A stretch of 45,929 nt of DNA, taken from the IMG/VR virus record IMGVR_UViG_3300045918_000389, positions 1 through 45,929 of that record; one strand, given 5' to 3'. Origin of the DNA: a virus. Shown here one piece after another: positions 4,692 to 27,095 of the stretch. The translations under genes and the position numbers were made by a program. Numbering within the stretch: the first letter of the stretch is position 1; every line of letters begins with the position of its first letter. The notes under the pieces were generated by a model. That model did not search any database, was not told the DNA's origin, and saw nothing but the letters and a program-made list of their open reading frames with translations.

Positions 4692-5287
4692 AAACAGAAC
4701 GTCAGTACCCGCTGCAGTGGCCCGAGGGCTGGCAGCGGACCCAGAGCCCTGGCAAGTCGCAGTTCAGCACTGGCCTGGAGAAGGCCACACGGGGTTTGCT
4801 TGATGAGATCCGCAAGCTCGGCGGCACGCTGCCGGTGATCAGCAGCAACGGGCAGTACCGCAGCGATGGGATGCCCTATGCCAGGCAGAGTTACATCGCG
4901 GACTCGGGTGTGGCGGTTTATTTCCAGCGCGACGGCAAGCCGATGGTTTTTGCCTGCGACAGCTACTGGACGTTGCAGGACAACATTCACGCCATTGCCA
5001 AGACGATTGAGGCGCTGCGTGCCATTGAGCGGCATGGTTCGAGCAACATGATGGAGCGGGCTTTTACCGGCTTTGCCGCTCTGCCAGCACCGATTCAGGC
5101 GGGCGTGAAGCGGCCCTGGCGCGATGTGCTGGAGTATGGCAACGAGCCAGCGAATGAGGGGCGCATTTGCCGCCACTACCGGATATTGGCCAAGGGGCTG
5201 CACCCGGACCGCCAGGGCGGTGATGCCAACAAGATGGCTGAGCTGAATGTGGCCAGGGATGAGGCGCTTGTGGAGTGTGGGCGATGA
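4688..5287 (+). CDS. J-domain-like protein with C-terminal HPD motif
   Basis: The last 30 residues of this 199-residue protein read as a partial J domain: helix, then LHPDRQGGDANKMAELNVA, with HPD at residues 172-174. HPD is the site by which J proteins stimulate Hsp70/DnaK ATPase. The N-terminal 150 residues contain a beta-rich block (YIADSGVAVYFQRDGKPMVF) seen in other phage proteins and no zinc ring. It may recruit host DnaK to the replication complex, as lambda replication requires host DnaJ/DnaK; that role is inferred. The separate zinc-ring protein at 2164 could be a partner. Confidence 0.75.
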   Translation: MKTERQYPLQWPEGWQRTQSPGKSQFSTGLEKATRGLLDEIRKLGGTLPVISSNGQYRSDGMPYARQSYIADSGVAVYFQRDGKPMVFACDSYWTLQDNIHAIAKTIEALRAIERHGSSNMMERAFTGFAALPAPIQAGVKRPWRDVLEYGNEPANEGRICRHYRILAKGLHPDRQGGDANKMAELNVARDEALVECGR

Positions 5288-5667
5288 GTGGCGTGACCGC
5301 ATCCCCATTCCCCCACATGGTGTGCAGCTTGACGCTGCAGCCTGCCAGCAACTGGAAGCCCGCGCAGCAGGAGCCTGAACCGGCAGGCCTGAGCCGCACG
5401 GAGCGGATCCGGCGGCTGCTGCGGTCGGCCAGGCGCCCAGTTACTGCTGAGGAAATTGCTTTTGACATGGCGGAGCACTTTCCCAACTTCGGTAGCCACC
5501 TGGTGTGGCTGCTGCTGAAGTACGACATGGCCAAGGGCAGGGTGCTGCTAGACGGTGGCCTGTATCGCTGGAACGCTGAGTTCGACACCGCCGAGGCGCA
5601 AGCCATTCGCGCCGCTGAGAAGCTGCTGCGCCAGCACGGTTACCGGCTGAAGCCTCCCGCCCGCTAG
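5284..5667 (+). CDS. Probable winged-helix early protein
   Basis: ATG 5284 overlaps the previous stop. The 127-residue product has a Pro-rich N-terminus and a middle segment (residues about 42-98) of helices ending in GRVLLDGGLYRWN, which has the helix-helix-beta-wing order of a winged-helix DNA-binding domain. No specific family is recognised. It is the last gene before the primase and may be a replication or regulatory accessory protein. Confidence 0.6.
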   Translation: MSGVTASPFPHMVCSLTLQPASNWKPAQQEPEPAGLSRTERIRRLLRSARRPVTAEEIAFDMAEHFPNFGSHLVWLLLKYDMAKGRVLLDGGLYRWNAEFDTAEAQAIRAAEKLLRQHGYRLKPPAR

Positions 5668-5680
5668 CCCCCCGACCCCC

Positions 5681-5700
5681 GCCCACTTTGTACGGTGGGC
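5681..5700 (+). promoter_or_regulatory. Inverted repeat before the primase gene
   Basis: GCCCAC (5681-5686) and GTGGGC (5695-5700) form a perfect 6-bp stem with an 8-base loop between the gene ending at 5667 and the primase. No T-run follows, so it is not a classical terminator; it could attenuate readthrough or bind a protein. Confidence 0.45.
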
Positions 5701-5726
5701 CATTCCCGTCAATCACAACAACAACT

Positions 5727-8534
5727 ATGTCAACTAAAGAACCCGAAAGCCCCATCAAAGTGGCCTCGCAGGAGCTGAACAAGCGGGTGGACTGTGCGGA
5801 TCTGGCCGAGCGCCTGGGTCTGCCCCGCGATGGCAAGGCCGGCAGTTTTGAGAACCCGAACGACGTCGGACGCCCCAAGACGCTGAGGTGCTATCCAGCC
5901 GATGACAATGGCAGCGGGTGGAAAGACTTCCGCACCGGCGCCCATGGCGGGCCGGTGGACCTGCTGATGCTGGTGCGCGGCCTGGACTATGTGCCTGCCG
6001 TGAAGGAGCGGGCCAGCATGTACGGCGTGGTGATCGCCCAGCCCGGCCGCCCGGTGCAGGCGGCGCCCAAGACAACGGCCGAGTTCATTGCCGACAACGC
6101 GCTGCGTGATGCCCGGGGGCCGCGTGCCGAGGAGCTGGTGGCCTACCTGGTGGGCCGGGGCATTCAGCCTTTTGCCATTGAGGCGGCTATCAAGCGGGGC
6201 ACGCTGGGGCTCAACACCTGGCACAGCAACAAGGTGGAGAAGGGCGATGTGAACTGGGGCGGCGCTGCAGCTGCCTTTGTAGTGCGCGATCGGCTCACGC
6301 AGGGGGTGGTGGCGGTGGACATGCGCTACTTTGTGCCCGACGACAACGGCGGGGTAAAGACGCAGAGCCAGGGCGAGAAGGCGCGCTACCCCTGGGCGAG
6401 TGACTGGCGCAAGGTGGAGGCGGCTAAGACGGTGTATGTGGTGGAAAGCAGCATCAATGTGCTGAGCATTGAGAGCTGTTTTTTACCGGGCAGCGCGGCT
6501 ATCAGCATCCGGGGCACGGGCAACGTGGACACCATTGATTGGTCGTTTTTGCGGGGCAAGCAGGTGATTGGCGTGCTGGATAACGACCCGCCCCTGGGCG
6601 ATAAGCACCCCAAGGCGGGCTATTGCCCCGGCCTGATGGCGTTTTGGCGGCTGCACGAGCTGCTGACCGGGCTAGATATCAGCTGCCTGATGGTGGACCA
6701 GGCCGATTGGCTGGATGCCGATGGCCAGCCGGTGAACGATGTGAACGACTTGCTGAAGCTGCGCGGCCTCGATGACACGGCCAAGGCGCTCAAGAAGCTG
6801 CAGGACTGGATGATCCCCGGCATGGTGGGCGATGACACCCGCCTGGGCAAGCCGCGGCTGTTTTTGCCGAGCCACGATTACTTGGTGTACTGGAAGTACC
6901 GGGTGCAGCTGGACTTCACGAAGGTGATTGGCAAAACCACCAAGGACGACAACGGCACCGAGAAGCACGATTTTCATGACGTCTGCGGCTTTCGGGTGGC
7001 AGCAGTGAGCCGGGTGCGGATCGCCAGCGACGAGAGCACGATGACGGGCAACCAGGACAACGCGCCCACCACCATGTTTGCCCTGAGCGTGCAGACCGCC
7101 CGCCACGGCCCGGAGCTGCAGCGGGTGGTGGTGGACGATGAGCGGCTGCACAACGTCGATGTATGGAAGAAGCTGGGCCCGGTGTATGCCCCGACGCCGT
7201 TTAGCCGCATGGTGAACGTGTGGGAGCGGGCGGCCAGCATCGGTGCGCGGGACGCAATCAACTTTGTGGGCCTGGCCTGGCGCGACGGGCGCCTGGCGCT
7301 GAACGAGGGCACCGACTGCTTTTTTACCGAGCCGACCGAGCAATGCCCGTACTACAACCTGACGTTCCCGAGTGGTGTGCCCCGCGACGGTTTGGAGGTA
7401 GTGAGCCAGTTTCAAGGAACTTTTGGGGACAACGAGGCGGCAATACCGCTGGTGTGGGCACTGGGGGCGCACTTGAAGGCGTTCCTGGGCTACTGGCCGC
7501 ACTTTGTGATGCAGTCAGAGAAGGGCGCGGGTAAGAGCGCGGTTGTTAAGTCGATAGGCACGGCCGTGGCCATGAAGCAGTTCAGCCGCCAGACGCTGCA
7601 GAGCGAGTACCGGATTATTGGCAGCGTGAGCTACACCAGCCAGCCGGTGGCCTGGGGTGAGTTTAGCCTCAACAAAGCGGAGATCCTTGCCAAGGCTATC
7701 GGCACGCTGCAGGAGTGTTATCAGTACGAGTCCACCAGCCGGGGCATTGGCTTGAAGCGCAAGTTCTTGATGAGCGCCCCGGTTTTGATGAACGGTGAGG
7801 ACGTTCCCGTGGACACACTGGAAGGCAAGGTGATCCGCACCAGTCTGACTATTGCTAAGCGCGGACCATTGATCGAGGACGATTGCCCCATGTTCCCGAT
7901 GCGCCAGTGGCTGCAGTACCTGGCGGGCCAAGAGAAGCGCCAAGTACTGCAGATGCACTCCGCAGCCGTGGCCACGCTGCAAAACAGCAGTTTGGCCAAG
8001 GCCGACGACTCTGGCGCTCAGCGCATGGTGCAGAACTATGCCGGCGTGCACGTGGCCTGGCAGTTGGTGTGTGAGTTTTTGAATTTACACGTCGACACGG
8101 GTGGCTTTTTGGGCGATTTAACTGCCCAAATGAACCGCCACATTGCAGACACCAAGGCCACCCGCCACCCGTGGGTGTGGATTGTGGAGAAGCTGCTGAG
8201 CGAGATTGCGCGCGGCGAGTTCCGCTACCCCTATCTGTTTGACTCGGATGGCCAGGGCAAGGGCTGGCTGTGCATCCGCACCGGCCACATCATGGACCAC
8301 ATGAGCCAGAGCAGCGGCCTGCGCGCCTTTTGGGATGGTCTGCCGATCAAGAGCGACCGGGCGCTTAAGAAGCAGTTGGCCTTGGCCGGTGTGTTGGAGC
8401 TCGACGCCGCCGGTGACCTGGTGGAGTTTGAGCGCACGGTCCACGGCAAGCGTGTTGGCCACATGGTGGGCCTGAGCCTGGATGCGCTGCGCCAGTATGG
8501 CCTGCACGCCGTGGTGCCCTTGGAGACCATTTGA
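5727..8534 (+). CDS. Bifunctional TOPRIM primase / P-loop helicase
   Basis: This 935-residue protein is the main replication enzyme of the phage. An N-terminal region (to about 90) resembles a primase zinc-domain remnant without the cysteines (WKDFRTGAHGGPVDLLM). A TOPRIM-like block follows at about 235-290, with VYVVESSINVLS carrying the conserved acidic residue and GVLDNDPP the DxD-like pair. The C-terminal half has a Walker A motif EKGAGKSAV near residues 598-606 and resembles DUF927/plasmid primase-helicases. It should synthesise primers and unwind DNA at the phage origin. Start ATG 5727 is chosen over an upstream TTG. It directly precedes the iteron region, the likely origin. Confidence 0.85.
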   Translation: MSTKEPESPIKVASQELNKRVDCADLAERLGLPRDGKAGSFENPNDVGRPKTLRCYPADDNGSGWKDFRTGAHGGPVDLLMLVRGLDYVPAVKERASMYGVVIAQPGRPVQAAPKTTAEFIADNALRDARGPRAEELVAYLVGRGIQPFAIEAAIKRGTLGLNTWHSNKVEKGDVNWGGAAAAFVVRDRLTQGVVAVDMRYFVPDDNGGVKTQSQGEKARYPWASDWRKVEAAKTVYVVESSINVLSIESCFLPGSAAISIRGTGNVDTIDWSFLRGKQVIGVLDNDPPLGDKHPKAGYCPGLMAFWRLHELLTGLDISCLMVDQADWLDADGQPVNDVNDLLKLRGLDDTAKALKKLQDWMIPGMVGDDTRLGKPRLFLPSHDYLVYWKYRVQLDFTKVIGKTTKDDNGTEKHDFHDVCGFRVAAVSRVRIASDESTMTGNQDNAPTTMFALSVQTARHGPELQRVVVDDERLHNVDVWKKLGPVYAPTPFSRMVNVWERAASIGARDAINFVGLAWRDGRLALNEGTDCFFTEPTEQCPYYNLTFPSGVPRDGLEVVSQFQGTFGDNEAAIPLVWALGAHLKAFLGYWPHFVMQSEKGAGKSAVVKSIGTAVAMKQFSRQTLQSEYRIIGSVSYTSQPVAWGEFSLNKAEILAKAIGTLQECYQYESTSRGIGLKRKFLMSAPVLMNGEDVPVDTLEGKVIRTSLTIAKRGPLIEDDCPMFPMRQWLQYLAGQEKRQVLQMHSAAVATLQNSSLAKADDSGAQRMVQNYAGVHVAWQLVCEFLNLHVDTGGFLGDLTAQMNRHIADTKATRHPWVWIVEKLLSEIARGEFRYPYLFDSDGQGKGWLCIRTGHIMDHMSQSSGLRAFWDGLPIKSDRALKKQLALAGVLELDAAGDLVEFERTVHGKRVGHMVGLSLDALRQYGLHAVVPLETI

Positions 8535-12894: not shown

Positions 12895-12923
12895 GCGCGC
12901 ACGCGCTCGTTTTGGCGGGCCGT

Positions 12924-13034
12924 GCAGGACACCCGCAAGGGTGTGCCGGTCCTTGCCCGGTCGTCCAACCTGCGCGGTCTGCCTCCTATGCTTGGACGCA
13001 TAGGGAGCAGGTTTTTTTGACCTAGTGCAAGGAG
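12924..13034 (+). promoter_or_regulatory. Target leader of C4-like RNA 1
   Basis: Box b CCTTGC (12951-12956) and box a CGTCCAA (12962-12968) are complementary to the C4-like RNA upstream. The same leader holds its own TTGGACG (12992-12998) and GCAAGG as the ribosome-binding site of the gene at 13044 (13027-13032). The leader can therefore fold with a pairing to its own TTGGACG and b pairing to the ribosome-binding site in one nested hairpin. A further GCAAGG at 12935-12940 gives b an alternative partner. Confidence 0.65.
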
Positions 13035-14374: not shown

Positions 14375-14396
14375 CAATTCCCCCCCTTTTTTTGTC
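14375..14396 (+). repeat. C7T7 element, copy 1 (late-block leader)
   Basis: CAATT, seven C, seven T, GTC. The same 22 bases recur at 24387-24408. Both copies follow an intrinsic terminator closely and precede the first gene of a late block (14421 and 24462). Similarity extends about 15 bases past the repeat (TGAT then a CGCT-like stretch). It is a candidate late promoter or activator site. Confidence 0.65.
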
Positions 14397-14420
14397 GCTG
14401 TGATGCGCTGACCATGTGGC

Positions 14421-17411: not shown

Positions 17412-18818
17412 ATGAGTTACCTGAAGACCGTGGCTGAGAACGTGGCTAAAAAGTGGGGCGAGATGTTCCCCAGTAGCGCCCGCCTGGCTGGCGAGACCGG
17501 GGGGCGTATCGACAGCGATAAAGCCATGCGCCGGGCGATGAAGAACGAGATGTTTGTGGACTACGAGCGCCGCGAGCTGGTGCGCCTGATGCGCGAGATG
17601 GACCTTAAAGATGGCCGCGTGAAGCAGGTGCACAACCGAACGGCGTCGGACGTGATTCGGGGCGGGCTGGTGATGCAGACCAACAGCGAGACGCTGGGCC
17701 GGGAGTGGGAGGCCTTTGAGGCGCGGCTGCAGCTGAACAACTGGGAGAAGCTCAAGAGCGACGCGCGCGGCATCATCATGGAGGGCAACCTGCCGCTGCA
17801 GCTGGTGCTGGACGCCGGCAAGATTGCCGCCGGTGTGCGTATGCCCAGCGACACGATCGTGCCGGTGGTGGACATGGGCGGGCGATTTAAGAACCCGGCT
17901 GTGGCGTATGAGCAGCGCGATGTGCTGAACGGCGGCGTGATAGCCGGGTTTGCAGCCTGGCAGATGGCCATGGGCCGACTGGACCCCGACAACTGGGACG
18001 ACCTGGGCAGCATGGGGCGCCCGCTGCTGGACGGCTGCGCCAGTGTGTGGCGCAAGCTGGTGATGACGGAGGAGGACCTGGTGATACGCCGCCGGGTGCG
18101 GGCCCCGCTGCGCCTGGCCCACGTGCTGGAGGGTGCCGACGAACCTACGCTGAATGCTTACCGCAAAACGACGGATAGCGAGAAAGGCGAGATCACCACC
18201 GACTTTTACCTCAACCGCAAGGGCGGTGTGCAGGCCATACAGGGAGACGCAACGCTGGGCGATATCGGCGACGTGGCCCACCTGCTGAGCACGTTTTTTG
18301 CCGGAAGCCCAGCGCCCAAGGCCATGTTTGGCTACACCGACGGCGTGGCGCGCGATGTACTCGAGGACATGAAGCGCAGCTACTACGACACGGTGGACGG
18401 CCTGCAGGACGCGGTGGGCGGGGTGTATGCGTTTAGCTTCCGGATGCACTTGTTATTCCAGGGCATTGACCCTGGCCCGGACGACTTTTACCTGCGCTTT
18501 GCCACGCGGCGCACCGAGAGCAGCAACCAGATTGCCGACCTGGCACTCAAGTACATGGCGCTGGGCCTGCCGGACGAACATATCCACAGCGAGATGGGCC
18601 TGAACCCCGAAAAAATTCGGGCGATGAAGATCAAGCAGGCACAGAGCACCGACCCGTACCCCAACGCCTTGAAGATTGGGGCGGACGGTGCCGCACAGGG
18701 CGCGCCTGGTGCACCTGGTGGCCAGAAGGTGAGCATTACGCCGGGCAATGCGCCCAAGGGTGAAAGCGGCACCAGCGTGTCGAACCCCGGCAGCAATGGC
18801 GGGAGGGGCCGGGCGTGA
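17412..18818 (+). CDS. Portal protein
   Basis: The 468-residue product lies between TerL and the MuF gene, the usual portal position, and has the usual size. It shows a basic wing/stem region (VKQVHNRTASDVIRGGLVM), a helical crown and a Gly/Pro/Ala-rich disordered C-terminus (residues about 425-468), as seen in many siphovirus portals. The portal forms the dodecameric DNA channel at one capsid vertex. No single diagnostic motif was read, so the call rests on context and composition. ATG 17412 is preferred to an upstream TTG. Confidence 0.78.
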   Translation: MSYLKTVAENVAKKWGEMFPSSARLAGETGGRIDSDKAMRRAMKNEMFVDYERRELVRLMREMDLKDGRVKQVHNRTASDVIRGGLVMQTNSETLGREWEAFEARLQLNNWEKLKSDARGIIMEGNLPLQLVLDAGKIAAGVRMPSDTIVPVVDMGGRFKNPAVAYEQRDVLNGGVIAGFAAWQMAMGRLDPDNWDDLGSMGRPLLDGCASVWRKLVMTEEDLVIRRRVRAPLRLAHVLEGADEPTLNAYRKTTDSEKGEITTDFYLNRKGGVQAIQGDATLGDIGDVAHLLSTFFAGSPAPKAMFGYTDGVARDVLEDMKRSYYDTVDGLQDAVGGVYAFSFRMHLLFQGIDPGPDDFYLRFATRRTESSNQIADLALKYMALGLPDEHIHSEMGLNPEKIRAMKIKQAQSTDPYPNALKIGADGAAQGAPGAPGGQKVSITPGNAPKGESGTSVSNPGSNGGRGRA

Positions 18819-20374
18819 ACACAGCGGCTACCCGGGCGGCGATCAAACGCGCCAGCCAGCAGGCACGCAACGCCATGCGCGAGCTGGACGCCCAGGCGCT
18901 GGCTGAGCTGGTGGCGCTGTACCAGGACGCGGTCGAGCAGGTGAAGGCGGCCATTGCGGCCCGGGCCGATGGCGACAACATGGTGCCGCTGGACCAGCTG
19001 CGCGGTCTGCTGCGCCAGGTGGAAGACGTGTTGGCCAACCTGGGCCAACTGCGTGATGCGCTGCTGCTGCAGGGCCTGCAGGACGCGGCCACGTTGGGCG
19101 TGCGCCCGTACACCGCTGCCGGGGTGGGTGCCACCGGCATGGCGGGCCAGGCTGTGCTGGGCACGGAAGCGGCCATGCGGATCCACACTGAGGCGGTGGA
19201 TTTTGTGCGCAGCTTCAAAGCTGCAGACGGCCTGACGCTGAGCGACCGGGTATGGCGGCTGGACCAGGGCGCCAAGGAGGCGCTGACCCGTGCCATTGGC
19301 CGGGCGGTGGTGAGCGGGTGGGATGCGCAGCGCGCGGCCCGCAGCTTTATGGCCAGCGGCCAGCCGGTGCCGCTGGATGTGCAGCAGCGCTTGCGTGCGG
19401 GCCGGGTGGATGCACTGCAAACCGGGGCGGACCTGCTGGTTGGAAGCGAAACGACCGGCGGCGAGGTGTGGAAGGCCCAGCGGGTAATGCGCACCGAGAT
19501 TAACCGCGCCCACGGCACGGCCTACATGGCCGCAGCTGAGGGCACGCCGGGGTTTGTGGGGTTTAGGTTTTTGCTGAGCCCGCTGCACCCGAAGCCGGAC
19601 ATTTGCGACCTGCTGGCCGCGCAGAACCTGTATGGCCTGGGTGCCGGTGTGTACCCCACTGCAAAGGAGTGCCCGTGGCCAGCGCACCCGAACACGCTGA
19701 GCTTTGTGGTGATGGTGTTTGAGGCTGAGGTGACGGTTGCGGACCGGGCGGGTAAAGAAACTGCGACGCAGGCCATGGGCAGGCTCAGTTCAGATGTGCG
19801 AGATGGGGTGTTGGGCAAAACCAAGGCGACGTATTTTGACCAAGGGCTATTGGGGAAGGGTGCTATCCGGAGCCCGCTGAGCGCGGTGGAGGAACGGTTG
19901 GGGCGCCAAGGCATTACCCCATCAATGGAAGTGAAGAAAACAGACACTGCAGCAGCTGCGGCCATACAGCGGTTTATTGATGAAAGCCGGGGCGGGAAGG
20001 TGGACCGGCGCATGGTTGTTGGGCCGATTGGGGGCGAAGCGGCGCGCTTTGTCCGTGAGGAATTGGGACGCGACCCCGCCAACCTGGTGCGCTCACTGGA
20101 GGCCAGTGCAGTGCGCCACACGTTTAAACACCATGGAAATGCGACCACTGAGGCTTTGCGTGGCCAGGTGGCTATTACGGACGCGGATTTTGAGCGGCTG
20201 CAGAAGATTGCGGCTGGGGGCAAGCGGGAGTTGTCAGAACGTACCAACCGGGGCAGTCCGGTGGTGACGGTGCAAATGACGCTGGGGGGGTATGACTACA
20301 CGGTGCAGGAGGTGGTGCGCCGGGATGATGTGACGCTGGTCACGATGTGGAAGAAGAAATCCAAGACCCAATGA
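18815..20374 (+). CDS. MuF-type minor head protein fused to a C-terminal PBECR-like nuclease toxin domain
   Basis: The GTG start (18815) follows GGGAGGGG and overlaps the portal stop. Residues about 150-310 carry the MuF core (RVWRLDQGAKEAL, VMRTEINRAHGTAY, then HPKPDICD and ECPWPAHPN), which lines the portal and is ejected with DNA. Residues about 340-519 are extra. They end in VRHTFKHHGN, ITDADFERLQKIAAGG and YTVQEVVRRDDVTLVTMWKKK, resembling the PBECR (barnase/EndoU/colicin-E5/RelE) toxin group known on MuF proteins. Such a domain could act as an RNase in the infected cell. The toxin assignment is by motif memory and needs a profile search. Confidence 0.78.
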   Translation: MNTAATRAAIKRASQQARNAMRELDAQALAELVALYQDAVEQVKAAIAARADGDNMVPLDQLRGLLRQVEDVLANLGQLRDALLLQGLQDAATLGVRPYTAAGVGATGMAGQAVLGTEAAMRIHTEAVDFVRSFKAADGLTLSDRVWRLDQGAKEALTRAIGRAVVSGWDAQRAARSFMASGQPVPLDVQQRLRAGRVDALQTGADLLVGSETTGGEVWKAQRVMRTEINRAHGTAYMAAAEGTPGFVGFRFLLSPLHPKPDICDLLAAQNLYGLGAGVYPTAKECPWPAHPNTLSFVVMVFEAEVTVADRAGKETATQAMGRLSSDVRDGVLGKTKATYFDQGLLGKGAIRSPLSAVEERLGRQGITPSMEVKKTDTAAAAAIQRFIDESRGGKVDRRMVVGPIGGEAARFVREELGRDPANLVRSLEASAVRHTFKHHGNATTEALRGQVAITDADFERLQKIAAGGKRELSERTNRGSPVVTVQMTLGGYDYTVQEVVRRDDVTLVTMWKKKSKTQ

Positions 20375-20378
20375 AAAA

Positions 20379-20435
20379 CCCCACGGGAGCTACCTGAGTG
20401 AACCGGTTGCCAAACGCCCGAAGCGTACCGTGGGG
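20379..20435. repeat. Long-loop inverted repeat after the MuF-toxin gene
   Basis: CCCCACGG (20379-20386) is matched by CCGTGGGG (20428-20435) with 41 bases between. It begins five bases after the toxin gene stop. It could be a transcription-attenuating stem or the scar of a removed element; no T-run follows. The gap to the next start (20545) holds only a 27-codon frame. Confidence 0.45.
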
Positions 20436-20544
20436 AAGCCGCATTTTAGTGGAATTTTTGGAATTATTCAAATGACCAATTTAGTAAATGCAAGTCTGGC
20501 CGGTGCGCCACTGCCAAGGCTGGGCAGGATACGAGGGCAGTCCG

Positions 20545-20889
20545 ATGGACTTTGACGAGTTGTTGGAGTGCTACCAGCGCGATTTCAAGGCCTACCGTGC
20601 GCTGATCGTGCTGGACGACAAAATATTGCGGCGATACGTGCTGTGCTGGAACCCACACCTGGTGCAGCGGGTGCACAGCTTTCCCATGGGCGAATCTGTC
20701 AAAGACCTGTGGGACTGCGTGGCCGTTGACTACAAGGCCCTGGGCGAACTGACTGGCGACAGCCTGCCCGACGTTATGGCCCGCTTCCGGCAAGTGCAGG
20801 GGCAGCAACTGATATGGCCGGATGGCACAGTGAACGGTTCTGTAGCGAGCATTCTGGCAAACAAGATGGCCGAAATCACTGGCCTGTAA
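20545..20889 (+). CDS. Small protein after MuF-toxin, possible immunity or head accessory
   Basis: ATG 20545 follows a GAGGG site. The 114-residue acidic product (MDFDELLECYQRDFKAYRAL at the start) has an alpha/beta composition and no recognised family. Polymorphic-toxin genes are often followed by an immunity gene, so that role is possible, but a head-accessory role is equally compatible. An in-frame ATG at 20488 exists without a ribosome-binding site. Confidence 0.6.
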   Translation: MDFDELLECYQRDFKAYRALIVLDDKILRRYVLCWNPHLVQRVHSFPMGESVKDLWDCVAVDYKALGELTGDSLPDVMARFRQVQGQQLIWPDGTVNGSVASILANKMAEITGL

Positions 20890-20926
20890 GCTAGGCTGCG
20901 CAGTCCAAAACCAAACCAAGCCCGCC

Positions 20927-21334
20927 ATGAAAAACAGTACTTTTGCCACCTGCATTGCCCTGCTGGTTGCCGCAGCGCTGTCCGCCTGCTCAACCCCTGA
21001 AGATTTGAAGCGCTCAAACCCGCCCGTGTCGTTCCAGGTAAACGCCAATTACCAGCTGGTGCTTAAACGCTTTGTTGACAACTATCAATAATGCTATGTC
21101 GGCCCGATATTGCCAATCGGGCAGGTTATCAATGAGGTGCAAAACTATCCCGATTTGAGAATGGCCACCATCGTGCGCGGCGCAAGTGGTGTGGGCTCGC
21201 AAACGCACCAAGTGTTTGAAATCAAGGAGACAGCCGCCAACACCACGGTGGTGAGCTTCACCCAACGGTTTGCAATACAAAAGTTCGCTGACTTTTACGA
21301 GCGCATTGCCAACGGCGCCACTGGCTGCCTGTAG
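20927..21334 (+). pseudogene. Lipoprotein gene interrupted by an in-frame TAA
   Basis: ATG 20927 opens a signal peptide ending in the lipobox LSAC with Cys21, so the product is a lipoprotein anchored in the membrane. The frame meets TAA at 21089-21091 after 54 residues. The same frame then continues open for 80 more codons with protein-like composition (VINEVQNYPDLRMATIVRGA, QHQVFEIKET-type strands, then FYERIANGATGC) to TAG 21332-21334. Codon use shows no change across the stop. Either the gene has been inactivated by one substitution, the stop is read through, or only the short peptide is used. Two bases separate its end from the nuclease start. Confidence 0.68.
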
Positions 21335-21336
21335 CT

Positions 21337-21768
21337 GTGAGCGCGCTGGCGCTGTGCATCGCGATCGCCATTGCTGATGGCGACACGCTCACCGTGCGCT
21401 GCGGGGCACCAGGTGCGTACACGCAAACCAAAATCCGGATTGCCGAGATCGATGCGCCCGAGCGCCGACAGGCCTACGGCGAGCGGGCGCACCAGACGCT
21501 GGCCACGCTTTGCCACCAGCAAACCGCTGAGGTAACCCCGCAAACCCTTGATCGCTATGGTCGCACCGTTGCCCGCGTGCGGTGCCAAGGGCAAGACGTC
21601 AGCGCCGCAATGGTCAAGGCAGGTATGGCATGGGCCTACGCGAAGTATTTGACAGACCCTGAAATCAAGCGACTGGAAGGGCTCTCACGCACGGGAAAGG
21701 TCGGGCTATGGTCTGACACTGCGCCCGTGCCCCCATGGGAGTATCGGCACCGAAAGGTCGGCGAGTGA
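21337..21768 (+). CDS. Thermonuclease (SNase-like)
   Basis: The 143-residue product is a staphylococcal-nuclease-fold enzyme. The calcium/catalytic residues are present in order: Asp14 and Asp16 in IADGDTL, Arg34 and Asp39/Glu42 in KIRIAEIDAPE, and Arg76 in DRYGRTVARV. The C-terminal GLWSD and PPWEYR segments are typical. SNase-like proteins hydrolyse DNA and RNA, usually outside the cytoplasm. The hydrophobic first 12 residues may be part of a signal sequence. GTG 21337 lies two bases after the interrupted lipoprotein frame, so the pair was likely co-translated. Confidence 0.85.
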   Translation: MSALALCIAIAIADGDTLTVRCGAPGAYTQTKIRIAEIDAPERRQAYGERAHQTLATLCHQQTAEVTPQTLDRYGRTVARVRCQGQDVSAAMVKAGMAWAYAKYLTDPEIKRLEGLSRTGKVGLWSDTAPVPPWEYRHRKVGE

Positions 21769-21770
21769 CG

Positions 21771-21804
21771 AAAAAAAAGGGCAAGCCGTTGCCGACTTGC
21801 CCTT
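21771..21804 (-). terminator. Intrinsic terminator for the leftward 39-aa gene
   Basis: AAGGGCAAG (21777-21785) and CTTGCCCTT (21796-21804) form a perfect 9-bp stem. Eight A on the + strand at 21771-21778 become a U-run on the leftward transcript, so it terminates leftward transcription. Confidence 0.82.
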
Positions 21805-21871
21805 CCCATCGTGGCCAACCTATTGACCACCACCGCCACCCTGGCGGGCGCCACTTGGACCCGTGCTGCCA

Positions 21872-21991
21872 CTAGTCCTTAACCCAGAACCGGAAGAAAC
21901 GAGCGTTCTTCGGATAGATTACACGGCCGTTCTTGGTGATAGAACGAGCGTAAACCCAGCGCCCACCGCTCTGATTTTCATTGGTAGTCAT
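21872..21991 (-). CDS. 39-residue basic aromatic peptide
   Basis: A leftward ATG (21991) with a strong AAGGAG site seven bases upstream opens a 39-codon frame that stops at TAG (21874-21872). The product ends NGRVIYPKNARFFRFWVKD, strongly basic and aromatic. A strong ribosome-binding site and a dedicated terminator (21771-21804) support real expression as a single gene. It is divergent from the candidate small RNA at 22036. No family is known; candidates are a regulator-binding or membrane-active peptide. Confidence 0.72.
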   Translation of the reverse strand: MTTNENQSGGRWVYARSITKNGRVIYPKNARFFRFWVKD

Positions 21992-22001
21992 GGCTGACTC
22001 C

Positions 22002-22030
22002 TTGAATTAATGTCTGTCGCGAGGGGTTAT
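22002..22030 (+). promoter_or_regulatory. Candidate rightward promoter of small RNA
   Basis: TTGAAT (22002-22007) and GGTTAT (22025-22030) with a 17-bp spacer. It overlaps the leader of the leftward peptide gene, so the two transcription units may interfere. Confidence 0.4.
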
Positions 22031-22035
22031 GAAAA

Positions 22036-22151
22036 GCTGCTGTAAGGTAGTTGGAGTAGCATCCACCCGCTTTGAGAAGCAACCGGTACCCCACCCTTGG
22101 TCGGTACCCGGGCAGGCAAGAAGGTCGAAGTTCTTGCCTGCCCATTTTTTT
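22036..22151 (+). ncRNA. Candidate rightward small RNA, antisense to the 3' side of the ImmA transcript
   Basis: There is no coding frame here, yet the stretch has three hairpins on the + strand: GCTGCT/AGTAGC (22036-22041 with 22055-22060), GGTACC/GGTACC (22085-22090 with 22103-22108) and a perfect 13-bp terminator stem GGGCAGGCAAGAA/TTCTTGCCTGCCC (22110-22143) followed by A-T7 (22144-22151). The T-run lies only on the + side, so the terminator serves a rightward transcript although flanking genes run leftward. Start estimated from the promoter at 22002. Confidence 0.55.
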
Positions 22152-22152
22152 G

Positions 22153-22692
22153 TCAGTGCATCCCCCAAACGTTTTTGACGCGTATCTCAGCCGCCTGGTA
22201 CGAAACTTTGAAGTGTTTTTCCACAGCTTGCGGTGTCCGCAAGTTGAGGAAACGAATCTCGGATTCCGGCATCAAAAACTCTGATGCGAAGGTATTTGCT
22301 TGCCACTCTGAGTTTTCATACTTCTTCATGTCCACTGCAGAAGATTCCCGGTTGGCAGTCGTTTGATGCGCCAGGATGATGTGACCAAGCTCATGAGCCA
22401 CAGTGAAGCGACCACGTGGCCCGCCCGAGCAAATGTCTGCATATACGGTATCGCGGATGTACAGCGTGTTGGCTGATGGAACCCAGCACGCCTCGACCTC
22501 TTTAGGAACTGGAGCGGACGCCCTGTCAAACACGTCAACCACAATCCCGAAGGCGTGCAGCCGCTCCAATAGCCGTTCGGCATCAAGTGGGCCGGCAGGT
22601 AAGTTCAATGCGGCTCGCGCATTGTTGGCAATCGTTTGGATCTTGTTTTTCGACTGGGGTGGAACCCGAAATCCCATGTGCAAGCCGGTCAT
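22153..22692 (-). CDS. ImmA/IrrE-type metallopeptidase (repressor-cleaving)
   Basis: The 179-residue leftward product has the zinc protease motif HELGH at residues 100-104 (FTVAHELGHIILAHQ) and a helical C-terminus with ASEFLMPE, typical of the ImmA/IrrE family. In mobile elements such as ICEBs1, ImmA cleaves the ImmR repressor and triggers induction. Its gene lies five bases after the XRE repressor gene in the same leftward operon, the standard pairing. It should therefore relieve repression upon a stress signal. Full length. Confidence 0.87.
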   Translation of the reverse strand: MTGLHMGFRVPPQSKNKIQTIANNARAALNLPAGPLDAERLLERLHAFGIVVDVFDRASAPVPKEVEACWVPSANTLYIRDTVYADICSGGPRGRFTVAHELGHIILAHQTTANRESSAVDMKKYENSEWQANTFASEFLMPESEIRFLNLRTPQAVEKHFKVSYQAAEIRVKNVWGMH

Positions 22693-22697
22693 ACAAA

Positions 22698-23051
22698 TTA
22701 ACCTTTCATGCTTTTACTCAAAAGCTGTTCAAATTTCTTGAGCTGCTCGGAGTCCAAATTAGTGCGCGCAAAACCTGCCACCAGCATTTGCTGGGCGGGT
22801 GATAAGCCAGCTACGCTGACTTCCCCGTTGGCCACCGTGGCCAGCTCCTGAAGGTGGGGTATTACCTTGCCTTGGTGCTTGAAAAAGGTGTCAATTTTTT
22901 CAATCCACACCAAGGGGATTTTCTTGCGGCCGGTTTCGATAGCGCTTAAGAAAGCGGGGGTCGCACCAATGGCATCAGCCATTTGTGACAACGTTGCATC
23001 GGTCTCGATCCGTGCGGTGCGGATCGCCTTTCCAAAGTCAGTTAGTGCCAT
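22698..23051 (-). CDS. XRE-family repressor (ImmR-like)
   Basis: The 117-residue product has an N-terminal helix-turn-helix (FGKAIRTARIETDATLSQMADAIG then TPAFLSAIETGRKKIP, residues about 6-45). The C-terminal half is helical and could be the dimer or protease-recognition part. It is transcribed leftward, divergent from the C4-2/antirepressor operon, with candidate operators in the 210 bp between. It is probably the prophage repressor cleaved by the adjacent ImmA-like protease and countered by the BRO antirepressor. Confidence 0.85.
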   Translation of the reverse strand: MALTDFGKAIRTARIETDATLSQMADAIGATPAFLSAIETGRKKIPLVWIEKIDTFFKHQGKVIPHLQELATVANGEVSVAGLSPAQQMLVAGFARTNLDSEQLKKFEQLLSKSMKG

Positions 23052-23261
23052 GTCGAACTCCTTGCAGTTGATGGGTATAGTTAGATCGTCTTTTTGCGAT
23101 GTGGTTAAATTTTAAACCGAAAAGGTTAATTTTGTGCAAGTTTATTTGATATTTGTTTTGGTGGGCGGGGGGCGCTTGTCAGCATCAAGAATTGATGCCA
23201 CAACACCGCCAGCCCAAGCCAGCACTGCATTGGACGCTATAAAAACTGCGAAAAAAAGCCG
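23052..23261. promoter_or_regulatory. Divergent control region with candidate repressor operators
   Basis: Between the leftward repressor and rightward C4-2 lie a near-palindrome GGTTAAATTTTAAACC (23103-23118) and a second GGTTAATTTTG (23124-23134), AT-rich and unlike the GC-rich surroundings. A perfect repeat GCATCAA-GAA-TTGATGC lies at 23182-23198. TATAAA at 23238-23243 may be an extra -10. The XRE repressor is the expected ligand; which site it uses cannot be told from sequence. Confidence 0.55.
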
Positions 23262-23290
23262 TTGACACTGCGCCTTTCACCTGTCACAGT
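23262..23290 (+). promoter_or_regulatory. Promoter of C4-like RNA 2
   Basis: A consensus -35 TTGACA (23262-23267) is followed after 17 bp by a poor -10 CACAGT (23285-23290). The spacer starts CTGCGCCTTTC, as in locus 1. A perfect -35 with a weak -10 may mean activator dependence. Confidence 0.6.
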
Positions 23291-23296
23291 GGCGCT

Positions 23297-23375
23297 GCCT
23301 GTGAAAACAGGCCGGGCTTGGAATCCCGAATGGAGCGGCGACAGGCCGCACGGTTTTACACTGGAGCGGCTTTTT
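23297..23375 (+). ncRNA. C4-like antisense RNA, locus 2
   Basis: The predicted 79-nt RNA shows hairpin CGGG-C-TTGGAAT-CCCG (23313-23328) with a' TTGGAAT (23318-23324). The b' sequence TGGAGC follows at 23331-23336 and again at 23362-23367. A terminator stem GCCGC/GCGGC (23345-23349 with 23366-23370) plus T5 ends it. It lies directly upstream of a BRO antirepressor gene, the known C4 context in phages P1 and P7. Its pairing sequences differ from locus 1 but match its own target (ATTCCAA 23444-23450, GCTCCA 23433-23438). Confidence 0.78.
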
Positions 23376-23410
23376 CTTCGTCTGTGCCCCTTTTCGGCGG
23401 CCCGGGCGGG

Positions 23411-23515
23411 TGGAGCCGCAAGGCTCGCCGGTGCTCCATCGGTATTCCAACGCCCGTTTCGGGCTGCCACCCTCGATTGGAATCGCGGGTGGCGGTTTTT
23501 AACCGCAACTGGAGC
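23411..23515 (+). promoter_or_regulatory. Target leader of C4-like RNA 2
   Basis: Box b GCTCCA (23433-23438) and box a ATTCCAA (23444-23450) lie 11 bases apart, as in locus 1. The leader also contains its own TTGGAAT (23477-23483) and TGGAGC at the antirepressor ribosome-binding site (23510-23515), so a and b can fold onto these in a nested hairpin that hides the start. Another TGGAGC at 23411-23416 competes for b. Confidence 0.68.
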
Positions 23516-23522
23516 AAGTTCT

Positions 23523-24083
23523 ATGAACACACGCACTCGCGCCCCCAAAACGGCGCTTTCTTTCCAAACCACCGCTTTTGAAGTCGTCGACCATGATGGC
23601 GAACCCTGGCTAAGGGGCTTGCAGGTTGCAAGTGCCTTGGGCCTCAAAAACCCGTCCGCAGACTTGACCAACCTGTACAACCGCAACGCCGACGAATTCA
23701 CCGAGCACATGACCCAAGTGATCGACCTGCGCACCGCCGGGGGCATGCAGAAGGTGCGCATCTTCAGCCTGCGCGGTGCCCACATGCTGGGCATGTTGGC
23801 CAAGACGGAGAACGCCAAGGCCTTCCGCCAGTGGGTGCTTGACATTCTGGAGGGCGCGGTGGCCCCGCAAGAAACCGGTCGCATGACCTACCCGCAGCGC
23901 CTGGCCTACCTGAAAGAGCGGCGCTGGCTTGCGCAGCAGTTGTCCAACTGCACAGAGCAGGGCCTTGCCGGCGAGCTGTATGACAACCTGGTGCACGTGT
24001 CCCGCCTGCTGGGCATTACCCCGCGCAGTATCGAGATGCTGGCCCCCGGCCTGAAGCAAAAAACCCTGTTGGTGACTGCATGA
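23523..24083 (+). CDS. BRO-N domain antirepressor
   Basis: The 186-residue product has an N-terminal BRO-N domain (about residues 14-110; EVVDHDGEPWLRGLQVASAL, LYNRNADEFTEHM, then FSLRGAHMLGMLAKTENAKAFRQWVL) common in phage antirepressors. The C-terminal part carries helices probably for oligomerisation or repressor binding. Antirepressors inactivate the prophage repressor and favour lysis. The C4-like RNA and target leader upstream imply RNA control, as for ant of P1/P7. ATG 23523 follows TGGAGCAAG. ATGA overlap with the next gene. Confidence 0.85.
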   Translation: MNTRTRAPKTALSFQTTAFEVVDHDGEPWLRGLQVASALGLKNPSADLTNLYNRNADEFTEHMTQVIDLRTAGGMQKVRIFSLRGAHMLGMLAKTENAKAFRQWVLDILEGAVAPQETGRMTYPQRLAYLKERRWLAQQLSNCTEQGLAGELYDNLVHVSRLLGITPRSIEMLAPGLKQKTLLVTA

Positions 24084-24319
24084 GCGCCGGGGCTGATAAC
24101 GGCCTCGATGCCGATGACGATGGCGCCCCCCTGCACGATGTGCAGGCCGCACACCGCCGGGTGAGTGCGCTGGTGGAGCTGCTGGGCGGCTGTGAGCCGG
24201 GGCAGCAGGTGACGGGCATTTTCATCCGCAGCTTGCTCGAAGATGTGCGCATGTACCTGGAGCTGGCCGTGGACAATTTGCGCCCCGTCGGTAAACTGCC
24301 CGACTCGCCAGCCGCATAG
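24080..24319 (+). CDS. Small antirepressor-partner protein
   Basis: The 79-residue acidic helical protein is coupled to the antirepressor by ATGA. It resembles in pattern the 92-residue product of C4 locus 1 (see 13044): VSALVELL then LLEDVRMYLELAVDNL. This suggests both cassettes carry a related small gene. Function unknown; translational coupling suggests it acts with the antirepressor. Confidence 0.65.
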   Translation: MSAGADNGLDADDDGAPLHDVQAAHRRVSALVELLGGCEPGQQVTGIFIRSLLEDVRMYLELAVDNLRPVGKLPDSPAA

Positions 24320-24338
24320 TCTGCGCGACCTGCCACAC

Positions 24339-24386: not shown

Positions 24387-24408
24387 CAATTCCCCCCCTT
24401 TTTTTGTC
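24387..24408 (+). repeat. C7T7 element, copy 2 (late-block leader)
   Basis: Identical to 14375-14396 (CAATT, C7, T7, GTC). It lies just after a terminator and 54 bp before the capsid gene, as copy 1 does before the packaging genes. In this copy GACAA and TTGTC also flank the C/T tract as an inverted repeat. Confidence 0.65.
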
Positions 24409-24461
24409 CGTTTGATCGCTTGAAACTGCTTTGCATCGGGTAGTCCGATGCGAGGTGTTTT

Positions 24462-27095
24462 ATGCAGCGGTCAGTGCGGTCTTTGGCTTTACTTGCGGCG
24501 GCTTTGGCGGTGGTGCATGCACCACCGCCTGCAGCGGGCCGCCACATTCTTTTGGCGGGGGAGGACGTGCCCGGACGGGTGCGGTTTCTTAGCCAATCTG
24601 TGCAGCTGGCCGAAGGCGCCACGCAGAGCTGGGTGACGTTGACCCGCACGGGCAACTTCACGGACCCGCGCTATGGCGAGTTTGCAATTACCGCCGACAT
24701 GCTGGGGCAGATGGTGGCCAACTTTGATAAGCGCGTGCTGGGGCAGGACGTGTTTATTGATGTGAGCCACAAGCCCAGCGATGGTGCTGCGGGCAAGGTG
24801 CTGAAGCTGTCGGTGGAGTCCGGCCGCTTGCGTGCACTGGTGGAGTGGACGCCGTTTGGTCTGGATGCGATCAAGCAGCGGGGCTTTACCTACCTGAGCG
24901 CTGAATACCACGAGGCCTGGAAGGACAACGAGGCGCAAAAGCCGCACGGTTGTGTGCTGCTGGGCGCTGGCCTGACGGTGCGCCCCGTGATCAAGCACCT
25001 GGAGCCGGTGCAGCTCTCTGACGACTACGACCATGCCACGGATGTGCGCACGGCAATTTCCCCATCCCTGATTAAAGAACTTACGGAGTTTTCCATGAAC
25101 AAGCATTTGCAAGCGCTGTTGGCGCGCCTGATTACCCTGGGCTTCACTGAAGCCACTGCCAAGCCCTTTTTGGATGCCGCTACGCCCGGCATTGCCGCTG
25201 CAGGTACCGACGAGGCCAAGTGCCTGGCCGTGGTGGAGACCTTTGCCACGCTGGGTGGCACTGCTGCCACGCAGACCAAGGCCGCAGGCGGCGACCCCAA
25301 GACGGTGACGATTACCCTGGCCGCGCCGAATGTGGATGTTGCCGGTGAGCTGACCAAGCTGCTGGCTGCGCGCGATGCCGCTGCCGCGACGGATGCCGCT
25401 ACGCTGGCCACCAAGGTAAAGCTGTTGAGCGACACCATTGCCGCCGGTGACAAGACGCTGACGCCCGAGGGTGTGAAGAAGTTTGCCGACGACTACGCCC
25501 CGCTGGTGACTGCTGCCACTACGGACGACCAGGTGAAGCACCTGGCCAGCCTGGCTGTGAAGCAGGCGCAGGAGCTGGGCGCTGCCAAGAAGCTGGCCGG
25601 GCTGGGCTATGTGCCTGCGAGTGGCAATGTGCACATTAGCGTGGACAGCAGCAACGGCATTAAGGCGCTGCAGGAGCAGGCTGATTTGCGCCTGGGCCTG
25701 GTGGCGGATGACCCGCGCCGCTTTGCCCGCACCGGCGGCATTTTGCTGGCGGCGAACAAGGCGTTTGCCGAGAAGGCGTTGGCGCAGTTTGACAGCCTGC
25801 GGGGTGTGGACCTGGATGCCGAGCACAAGCAACTGTCTGGCGGCCTGGGCAACCTGAGCGACAACAAGCTGCCTGCAGTGTTTGAGCGCACGGTGTTGCG
25901 CGAGATGCTTTACAACCTGACGAGCCTGAGCTTTATGGATGTGGGCACCTACCCGTTTGCGGCGACGGTGACGATTCCCTACAGCTACCGCGACACGACG
26001 GCGGCTGGCGTGAGCGGGCTGCGGGTGTATGAGCGTGGCGCGGTGCAAAACGCCGGTGTGGTGCAGACGGCTGAGAATGCCTACCCGATCCCGCAGAAGC
26101 TGGGGTTTGACGTATCCAACGAGATGCGCTACCTGGTGGCGGCGGCACCCATTGACTTTGACGTGATTGCGGAGAACACCCGCAACGCGATTCGGGTGGT
26201 GGCTGAAGACACCGAGGCGCTGAACATGAACGAGCTGCTGCGCTCTGCTGACGAGCACCTGGCGGTGGCGGTGACTGGTGAGGCGTTGACTGCAAACGTG
26301 AACGGCACCAACAAGACGTTTGTGCTGGCGCAGTACCCGGTGGTGCGCCCGCGCAAGCTGTATGACCTGCAGGGCACGCAGATTGGCAGCACGACAAACC
26401 CGATTGTGGTGACGCTGAACAGTGTGGTGCGCGAGGAGTATGACGGCACTGGCACGCAGGCCACCGGCACCTACTACACCCTGGACTACAACCTGGGCGA
26501 GTTGCGTTTTGTGACGCAGGCCGGTGTAAGCGTGACGCCCACCAGCGCCTGGGCGCTGACCGTGAGCTACAGCTACACCCAGAACGTGAGCAAGTTCGAC
26601 ACGGACCTGGGAACGCTGACGGTGAAGGACAAGTACGACCTGCTGTTGACTGCCATTGGCAGCCGCAAGGTGGTGATTGGCAATGACCGCTACTACAACC
26701 CGAACATGGCGCTGTGGAGCGCTGCGGTGGACAACATGCTGACCCAAGCGGGAACGTTCACCGCCAACGGCGCGCGCCTGGGCACGAGCCTGAACGCTGA
26801 CGGCAGCGTGGGTGTGACCAAGGGCATTGGCACCTTTAACACCACGGCGCCCAACCTGTTTATGGGTGACACGCGCATTTTGGTGGGCGAGCGCTACAAC
26901 AGCCGGTACCGGATGCTCAAGCCGTTCAGCATGAACGCCATGGAGCAGAAGAAGGACAGCAACGGCAAGTTTGTGGGCGCGATGACTGCCTACGGCGACC
27001 AGTACGTGGCGGTGCACACCCCGACGATGCGCCGCAATGCGTTGACCGGCATCGTGCTGTACAGCGCCACTGGCCGCGTCAACCGCACGACCTGA
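24462..27095 (+). CDS. Head maturation protease - scaffold - major capsid fusion
   Basis: One 877-codon frame contains three normally separate functions. Residues 1-205 resemble the Mu gpI-type protease: SWVTLTRTGNF, FIDVSHKPSDGAAGKV with a likely catalytic His, and FTYLSAEYHEAW with a likely Ser. Residues about 212-390 are Ala/Thr/Lys-rich and helical, like a scaffold. Residues about 388-877 resemble a major capsid protein (DLRLGLVADDPRRFARTGGI, then YPFAATVTIPYSY, NEMRYLVAAAPIDF). In most phages these are cleaved or encoded apart; here protease self-cleavage would have to free the capsid. A signal-peptide-like N-terminus is odd. A strong internal start lies at 25095. Confidence 0.82.
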   Translation: MQRSVRSLALLAAALAVVHAPPPAAGRHILLAGEDVPGRVRFLSQSVQLAEGATQSWVTLTRTGNFTDPRYGEFAITADMLGQMVANFDKRVLGQDVFIDVSHKPSDGAAGKVLKLSVESGRLRALVEWTPFGLDAIKQRGFTYLSAEYHEAWKDNEAQKPHGCVLLGAGLTVRPVIKHLEPVQLSDDYDHATDVRTAISPSLIKELTEFSMNKHLQALLARLITLGFTEATAKPFLDAATPGIAAAGTDEAKCLAVVETFATLGGTAATQTKAAGGDPKTVTITLAAPNVDVAGELTKLLAARDAAAATDAATLATKVKLLSDTIAAGDKTLTPEGVKKFADDYAPLVTAATTDDQVKHLASLAVKQAQELGAAKKLAGLGYVPASGNVHISVDSSNGIKALQEQADLRLGLVADDPRRFARTGGILLAANKAFAEKALAQFDSLRGVDLDAEHKQLSGGLGNLSDNKLPAVFERTVLREMLYNLTSLSFMDVGTYPFAATVTIPYSYRDTTAAGVSGLRVYERGAVQNAGVVQTAENAYPIPQKLGFDVSNEMRYLVAAAPIDFDVIAENTRNAIRVVAEDTEALNMNELLRSADEHLAVAVTGEALTANVNGTNKTFVLAQYPVVRPRKLYDLQGTQIGSTTNPIVVTLNSVVREEYDGTGTQATGTYYTLDYNLGELRFVTQAGVSVTPTSAWALTVSYSYTQNVSKFDTDLGTLTVKDKYDLLLTAIGSRKVVIGNDRYYNPNMALWSAAVDNMLTQAGTFTANGARLGTSLNADGSVGVTKGIGTFNTTAPNLFMGDTRILVGERYNSRYRMLKPFSMNAMEQKKDSNGKFVGAMTAYGDQYVAVHTPTMRRNALTGIVLYSATGRVNRTT
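25095..27095 (+). CDS. Likely nested scaffold-capsid product (internal start)
   Basis: Within the fusion frame, ATG 25095 (codon 212) follows ACGGAG with a 7-base spacing, an excellent ribosome-binding site that would be coincidental in coding sequence. It would produce a 666-residue scaffold-capsid protein starting NKHLQALLARLITLGF without the protease. Phage Mu and lambda use the same nested trick (Z in I, Nu3 in C) to make much more scaffold than protease. Mass spectrometry would show which products exist. Confidence 0.6.
   Translation: MNKHLQALLARLITLGFTEATAKPFLDAATPGIAAAGTDEAKCLAVVETFATLGGTAATQTKAAGGDPKTVTITLAAPNVDVAGELTKLLAARDAAAATDAATLATKVKLLSDTIAAGDKTLTPEGVKKFADDYAPLVTAATTDDQVKHLASLAVKQAQELGAAKKLAGLGYVPASGNVHISVDSSNGIKALQEQADLRLGLVADDPRRFARTGGILLAANKAFAEKALAQFDSLRGVDLDAEHKQLSGGLGNLSDNKLPAVFERTVLREMLYNLTSLSFMDVGTYPFAATVTIPYSYRDTTAAGVSGLRVYERGAVQNAGVVQTAENAYPIPQKLGFDVSNEMRYLVAAAPIDFDVIAENTRNAIRVVAEDTEALNMNELLRSADEHLAVAVTGEALTANVNGTNKTFVLAQYPVVRPRKLYDLQGTQIGSTTNPIVVTLNSVVREEYDGTGTQATGTYYTLDYNLGELRFVTQAGVSVTPTSAWALTVSYSYTQNVSKFDTDLGTLTVKDKYDLLLTAIGSRKVVIGNDRYYNPNMALWSAAVDNMLTQAGTFTANGARLGTSLNADGSVGVTKGIGTFNTTAPNLFMGDTRILVGERYNSRYRMLKPFSMNAMEQKKDSNGKFVGAMTAYGDQYVAVHTPTMRRNALTGIVLYSATGRVNRTT

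Follow-up and report, generated by a model that had tools for sequence, protein, structure and literature searches.

A protease, scaffold and HK97-fold capsid gene in a single frame, with a conserved internal start signal, in a family of phages and prophages

A single gene that encodes a head maturation protease, a scaffold and an HK97-fold capsid protein in one frame is present at positions 24462–27095 (+ strand) of a viral DNA of 45,929 nucleotides (IMG/VR record IMGVR_UViG_3300045918_000389; hereafter the window). The fusion is real, and its frame, the conservation of that frame, the assignment of its domains and a conserved initiation signal inside the gene were all observed. We consider it likely, with a probability of roughly 85%, that one mRNA directs synthesis of a minor 94-kDa protease-scaffold-capsid protein together with a 71-kDa scaffold-capsid protein, and that the two co-assemble before the scaffold is removed by the protease. 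The coordinates of the elements involved are given in Table 1.

Table 1. Features of the fused head gene and its upstream flank in the window
Feature	Coordinates	Strand	Residues	Basis or property
Hairpin GCATCGG-GTAGT-CCGATGC	24433..24451	+		Abuts first Shine-Dalgarno sequence
Shine-Dalgarno GAGGTG of full-length product	24452..24457	+		-7.2 kcal/mol
Fused protease-scaffold-major capsid gene	24462..27095	+	877 codons, 93.7 kDa	Open frame; ~126 full-length single-frame relatives
Head maturation protease domain, PF10123/U35 type	24606..24986	+	~49-175	Pfam, phrog, conserved residues, predicted fold
Scaffold region, all-helical with long coil	25062..25601	+	~201-380	Model secondary structure; position by Mu/lambda analogy
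Internal Shine-Dalgarno ACGGAG	25083..25088	+		Position conserved across 128 genes
Internal ATG	25095..25097	+	212	In frame; start of predicted 666-aa scaffold-capsid product, 70.7 kDa
Conserved linker/helical region	25602..25841	+	~381-460	Alignment, model
HK97-fold major capsid domain	25842..27092	+	~461-877	Structure model and PDB matches

The reading frame, its relatives and its surroundings

Translation of 24462–27095 gave one open frame of 877 codons that contains no stop, in agreement with the original prediction. A single-sequence scan of IMG/VR recovered 12 relatives with 57–77% identity, nearly all of them matching over their full length and two cut by contig ends. A profile scan of the same resource recovered 221, of which 80 were kept, and a scan of GTDB genomes yielded 52, mostly from Beta- and Gammaproteobacteria and including finished or isolate genomes. 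A single frame of at least 780 codons was found at 124 of the 134 loci with matches, and two more (L045 and L100) were added after the frame had been read from inside the match, for a total of ~126. Loci that were not intact had been cut by contig ends (L011, L018, L123, L126 and L130), carried one in-frame stop (L061), were multiply frame-shifted (L131) or consisted of a short fragment (L134). A search with the capsid half alone added 57 new loci; 52 of them carried the fusion, many being contigs already recovered but cut at other points.

Most characterised Mu- and lambda-type phages, Mushuvirus for example, have a separate capsid gene, as would be expected if the long frame were an artefact of sequencing or assembly that had joined two genes. 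The same fusion in ~126 independent contigs, the complete chromosome of Polaromonas sp. P2-4 and the cultured Microcystis phage yong1 among them, refutes this explanation, and its probability is negligible. A missed stop near 25600, for which a check of the reads had been proposed, need not be invoked, as the frame is intact in these relatives. The opposite strand carries an 842-codon open reading frame (24489–27017, - strand) that mirrors the fused gene with near-complete overlap; it was rejected as a gene, since just 17 of 125 relatives keep it open and others interrupt it with up to 59 stops. Closure of the antisense frame in most relatives indicates that the + frame is the gene.

Of the five capsid-half matches that were not fused, four were truncated by contig ends. 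At the fifth (L155), a homologous capsid ORF at 4950–6428 begins with TTG near the equivalent of window residue 400, and neither protease nor scaffold was detectable in the 5 kb upstream of it. The upstream part is unrelated and contains an ORF that appeared resolvase-like by eye. This locus could represent a rearranged prophage, a chimera, or a true loss or split.

Several observations concern the neighbourhood of the gene. The fused head gene is separated from the head morphogenesis gene by about 4 kb (20375–24320) whose genes appear to be non-structural; they include a Bro-N/Ant-type antirepressor-like ORF at 23262–24083, and the other ORFs in this stretch were read by eye. The head morphogenesis protein (18815–20374) has a C-terminal PBECR3-type nuclease-like domain (residues 413–518; E 3e-5, below the Pfam cutoff). 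The C4 antisense RNA family (RF01695) is represented by two copies on the + strand, at 12908–12989 and at 23390–23474, the latter within the leader of the antirepressor-like ORF or its 5′ portion. A 22-bp tract, CAATTCCCCCCCTTTTTTTGTC, occurs twice in the window. One copy, around 14376–14397 (+), precedes an ORF at 14421, shortly before the terminase region; the other, around 24388–24409 (+), precedes the fused head gene. In 28 loci a C-run/T-run/G pattern falls within the ~100 nt preceding the head gene or at its start; elsewhere in the 1.7 Mb of loci it was seen just 8 times, three of these ~6.4 kb downstream. The pattern is possibly a late-operon control element.

Closer to the start codon, hairpins were found in relatives at the same place as that in Table 1, with other stems that still pair (CACGG/CCGTG in L009 and AACGG/CCGTT in L011). 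A hairpin near the start was present in 42 of 121 loci, compared with 15.6 +/- 3.9 in shuffles. The hairpin in the window is a possible modulator of full-length synthesis.

Domains of the fused protein

Residues 73–357 of the fused protein matched PF10123 (Mu-like_Pro; 1.3e-8, 35.2 bits against a cutoff of 25.2), and residues 44–378 matched phrog_328, a head maturation protease family (3.7e-13). His103 (24768–24770) and Ser146 (24897–24899), presumably the catalytic residues given what is known of Mu-like proteases (U35, herpes-protease-like clan), were kept in 127 and 128, respectively, of 128 aligned relatives, and L171, R174 and P175 of an AGLT-RP signature were each invariant in the same set (128/128). 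An AlphaFold model of residues 25–385, based on 101 relatives, had a pLDDT of 86.5; in it, long helices follow a compact alpha/beta domain. Foldseek comparison of this model with the PDB placed the proteases of KSHV, HCMV, EBV and pseudorabies virus (PRV) at the top, and T4 gp21 was matched too; probabilities were 0.99–1.00, but E-values were modest (1.6e-3), perhaps because the query included the scaffold as well. These family and fold matches bear out the protease motifs noticed earlier, and the N-terminal domain is predicted to be a Mu gpI-type protease with the fold of the herpesvirus and T4 gp21 enzymes. The middle of the protein, originally noted as Ala/Thr/Lys-rich and read as a scaffold, is Ala-rich and predicted to be helical. 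A reading of the Ala-rich N-terminus as a signal peptide was set aside, as this segment varies among relatives and is far shorter in several of them.

The model of residues 381–877 had a pLDDT of 89.3 and a pTM of 0.87. It gave 313 PDB matches at E<=1e-3, the best at E ~1e-8 to 1e-6 with a probability of 1.00, and the best 50 of the 313 were all viral capsid structures, HK97 included. At the sequence level, a PDB search with profiles of both halves gave no relevant match, and a Pfam scan of the capsid half gave no match to a capsid family, PF25209 included. The lack of a PDB relative by sequence and of a Pfam capsid match would suit an arrangement in which the C-terminal half is a minor virion protein and the true capsid protein is encoded elsewhere in the window. 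Against this stand the strong HK97-fold match and the gene order, which runs from terminase through portal, head morphogenesis, fused gene and adaptor to tail, and none of the other window ORFs scanned is a candidate for the capsid; we regard such an arrangement as very improbable. The structure model makes the C-terminal half a confident HK97-fold capsid, and the capsid-like character first attributed to it was upheld by this comparison (E ~1e-8 against phage capsids). Taken together, the family and fold matches argue that the three-part reading, comprising a protease, a helical scaffold and an HK97-fold capsid, is right.

The region around residues 380–470 contains the conserved motifs GYxPxxG...HIxVD and LAxGxGxVSDxxVP, and the N-terminus of the mature capsid protein probably lies between about residue 380 and 470. 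The linker that precedes the capsid domain may also be removed on maturation, in the manner of a delta domain.

An internal start at the protease/scaffold border

The original prediction placed an ATG at 25095 behind ACGGAG. This codon is in frame, at residue 212, with a gap of 6 nt between GGAG and ATG and a Shine-Dalgarno (SD) energy of -6.1 kcal/mol. A start codon is present at the protease/scaffold border in all 128 aligned genes (118 ATG and 10 GTG), where the SD:anti-SD energy averaged -6.6 kcal/mol and was <=-5 in 94% of the genes. As controls, 1,995 in-frame ATGs elsewhere in these genes averaged -2.1 kcal/mol, with 9% at <=-5, and the corresponding fraction at seven other conserved Met columns was 0–14%. 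When mean SD strength was ranked over 851 alignment columns with start codons ignored, columns 341 and 339, which hold most of the internal ATGs, came out on top. The peptide just upstream of the internal start is variable (LTEFS, LEHPD, QEVSI, NEVKDT and LQEIQ), and the SD is found at differing codon distances among relatives. In a synonymous-codon null the mean was -4.9, compared with the observed -6.6, and per-gene p values were not significant. Null SDs were fairly good because the encoded peptides are Glu-rich, which favours GGAG; the case for the internal start consequently rests on the control ATGs and the column ranking. By sequence comparison the internal start is the strongest signal in the family, far above chance, and it suggests that the scaffold-capsid part is also made alone.

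Three genes outside the aligned family have a comparable signal. Mushuvirus, a split, Mu-style phage with a 343-codon protease gene and a separate capsid gene, has, at residue 157 of the protease gene, an in-frame ATG behind a strong SD (-11.7), where a nested scaffold would start. Brevibacillus phage Emery gp6 has an SD-ATG at residue 343 (AAGGAGG, -11.4), at its protease/scaffold border, and the fused gene gp30 of Rctr41k has a border SD-ATG at residue 293 (-8.5).

These results bear on whether the internal start is used at all. The frame is unbroken, cleavage by the protease in cis is plausible, and the synonymous null indicates that the peptide sequence by itself biases the DNA toward an SD-like stretch; only the full-length polyprotein might accordingly be made, processing itself in cis to equal amounts of protease, scaffold and capsid while the internal start stays silent. 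We think this unlikely, as a start codon with an SD is found in 128 of 128 genes despite its shifting position and a variable peptide, and the same signal appears again in independently fused and in split relatives. An internal sigma-70-type promoter for a separate short transcript of the herpesvirus kind was rejected as well: the scan, which covered promoters of this type, gave no match inside the gene, its one weak match (24270–24297) lying ahead of it. The additional scaffold-capsid form that was originally proposed has strong comparative support in the conserved start codon and SD; both proteins are presumably made and cleaved.

Expression from two starts, the origin of the fusion, and known systems

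On the reading we favour, the gene is a late one, and initiation at 24462 would yield the 877-aa polyprotein in minor amount, and initiation at the internal SD and ATG would yield the 666-aa scaffold-capsid protein. The two products would co-assemble through their identical scaffold and capsid parts. As these parts are common to both, a few subunits would carry the protease into the prohead as their N-terminal extension. During maturation it would cleave itself off and remove the scaffold, so that only the capsid domain would remain to form the shell. The existence of both products, their ratio, their co-assembly and the cleavages are inferred. If two products are indeed made from one gene, this would be a compact way to obtain many shells with few enzymes.

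The internal start in Mushuvirus suggests that the fusion probably kept a nested scaffold start. The simplest account is that a Mu-type protease gene with a nested scaffold was joined to a capsid gene and that the nested start was retained, perhaps because it sets the ratio of protease to capsid. The Emery and Rctr41k fusions, with internal starts of a similar kind, hint at repeated origin or spread from Mu-type nested genes. On balance, we lean toward a broader picture in which a large and mostly unannotated lineage of phages and prophages makes two co-terminal head isoforms from one gene, with the protease an N-terminal extension on a minority of subunits and its dose set by the relative strength of the two ribosome-binding sites and possibly the hairpin, this design having originated or spread repeatedly from nested genes of the Mu type. 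The cultured phages of the family offer systems in which protease dosage is measurable.

In both Mu and lambda the scaffold is nested in the protease gene; the lambda protease is of the ClpP/S49 type, and the lambda capsid gene, E, is separate. Herpesvirus UL26/UL26.5 gives nested, co-terminal protease-scaffold and scaffold products, and its protease has the same fold as that predicted for the window gene. The herpesvirus capsid protein is separate, and the nesting there arises from a separate transcript. Mu gpI/Z and Mushuvirus resemble the window gene in their PF10123-type protease and in having, at the border, a nested scaffold start that shares the frame of the protease, but their capsid gene is separate, whereas that of the window is fused behind the scaffold. 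The delta (scaffold) domain and capsid of HK97 gp5 have the layout of the predicted internal product, and there too a protease removes the scaffold; in HK97, however, the protease is the product of a separate gene, gp4. As in the window gene, lambda C/Nu3 combines a protease with a nested in-frame scaffold (PMC8508860).

The Microcystis phage vB_MaeS-yong1 (MT855965) has the same fused gene, with 40% identity and an internal ATG, annotated as a "hypothetical protein"; the accompanying note reads "Mu-like prophage I protein". A neighbouring 77-aa ORF (L013 11699–11932; MT855965 2979–3212) is labelled "major head protein"; this label is probably a misannotation, the adjoining fused gene being the capsid candidate. 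Emery gp6 (KC595516, 1006 aa), also annotated as a "hypothetical protein", has a capsid half homologous to that of the window gene along with its internal SD-ATG, but its protease is S77-like (a weak match, below cutoff). The likely major capsid protein is thereby identified for a family annotated as hypothetical in yong1 and Emery and misassigned in yong1.

The gene was originally put forward as a further fused version of the Mu and lambda arrangement. The fusion itself stands; the architecture is not new. It had been proposed earlier for MD8 gp5 (PMC8508860), fusions of protease and capsid had been described in thaumarchaeal proviruses (PMC6563490), and the GenBank annotation of Rctr41k gp30 reads "putative phage capsid protein and protease". 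Our literature search for other single-gene fusions found MD8 and the thaumarchaeal proviruses. A combined protease, scaffold and capsid gene was proposed for Pseudomonas phage MD8 gp5 in 2021 (PMC8508860). That protein (693 aa) would likewise carry a protease, a scaffold and an HK97-fold capsid in one frame, but its protease is ClpP-like (PF00574) and its capsid PF25209/Mu gpT-like, whereas the window gene matched PF10123 and gave no PF25209 match. The MD8 paper uses neither "internal" nor "start codon". Candidate SD-ATGs lie in frame in the MD8 gene, at residues 185 and 220 (L135 4923 and 5028), the first with the SD AAGGAGGAG inside the ClpP domain and the second with GGAG at the scaffold border. 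The thaumarchaeal proviruses Nvie-Pro1, NCAV2-Pro1 and NitIsl-Pro1 encode protease-major capsid protein fusions (PMC6563490); their protease is chymotrypsin-like or of the S78 family (PF04586), unlike the PF10123 protease of the window, and the passage that describes them mentions no internal start.

A conserved internal start in such fusions was not described in the literature searched, which covered few subscription papers. Its occurrence in more than 100 fused genes makes a sequence-level case that such a fusion retains an internal start and probably continues to yield two products. The window family differs from the known fusions in its protease class (PF10123), its capsid family, its wide distribution and this conserved internal start, and the fused gene links three designs: the nested scaffold of Mu and lambda, the scaffold-capsid fusion of HK97, and the protease-capsid fusion of MD8 and the archaeal proviruses.
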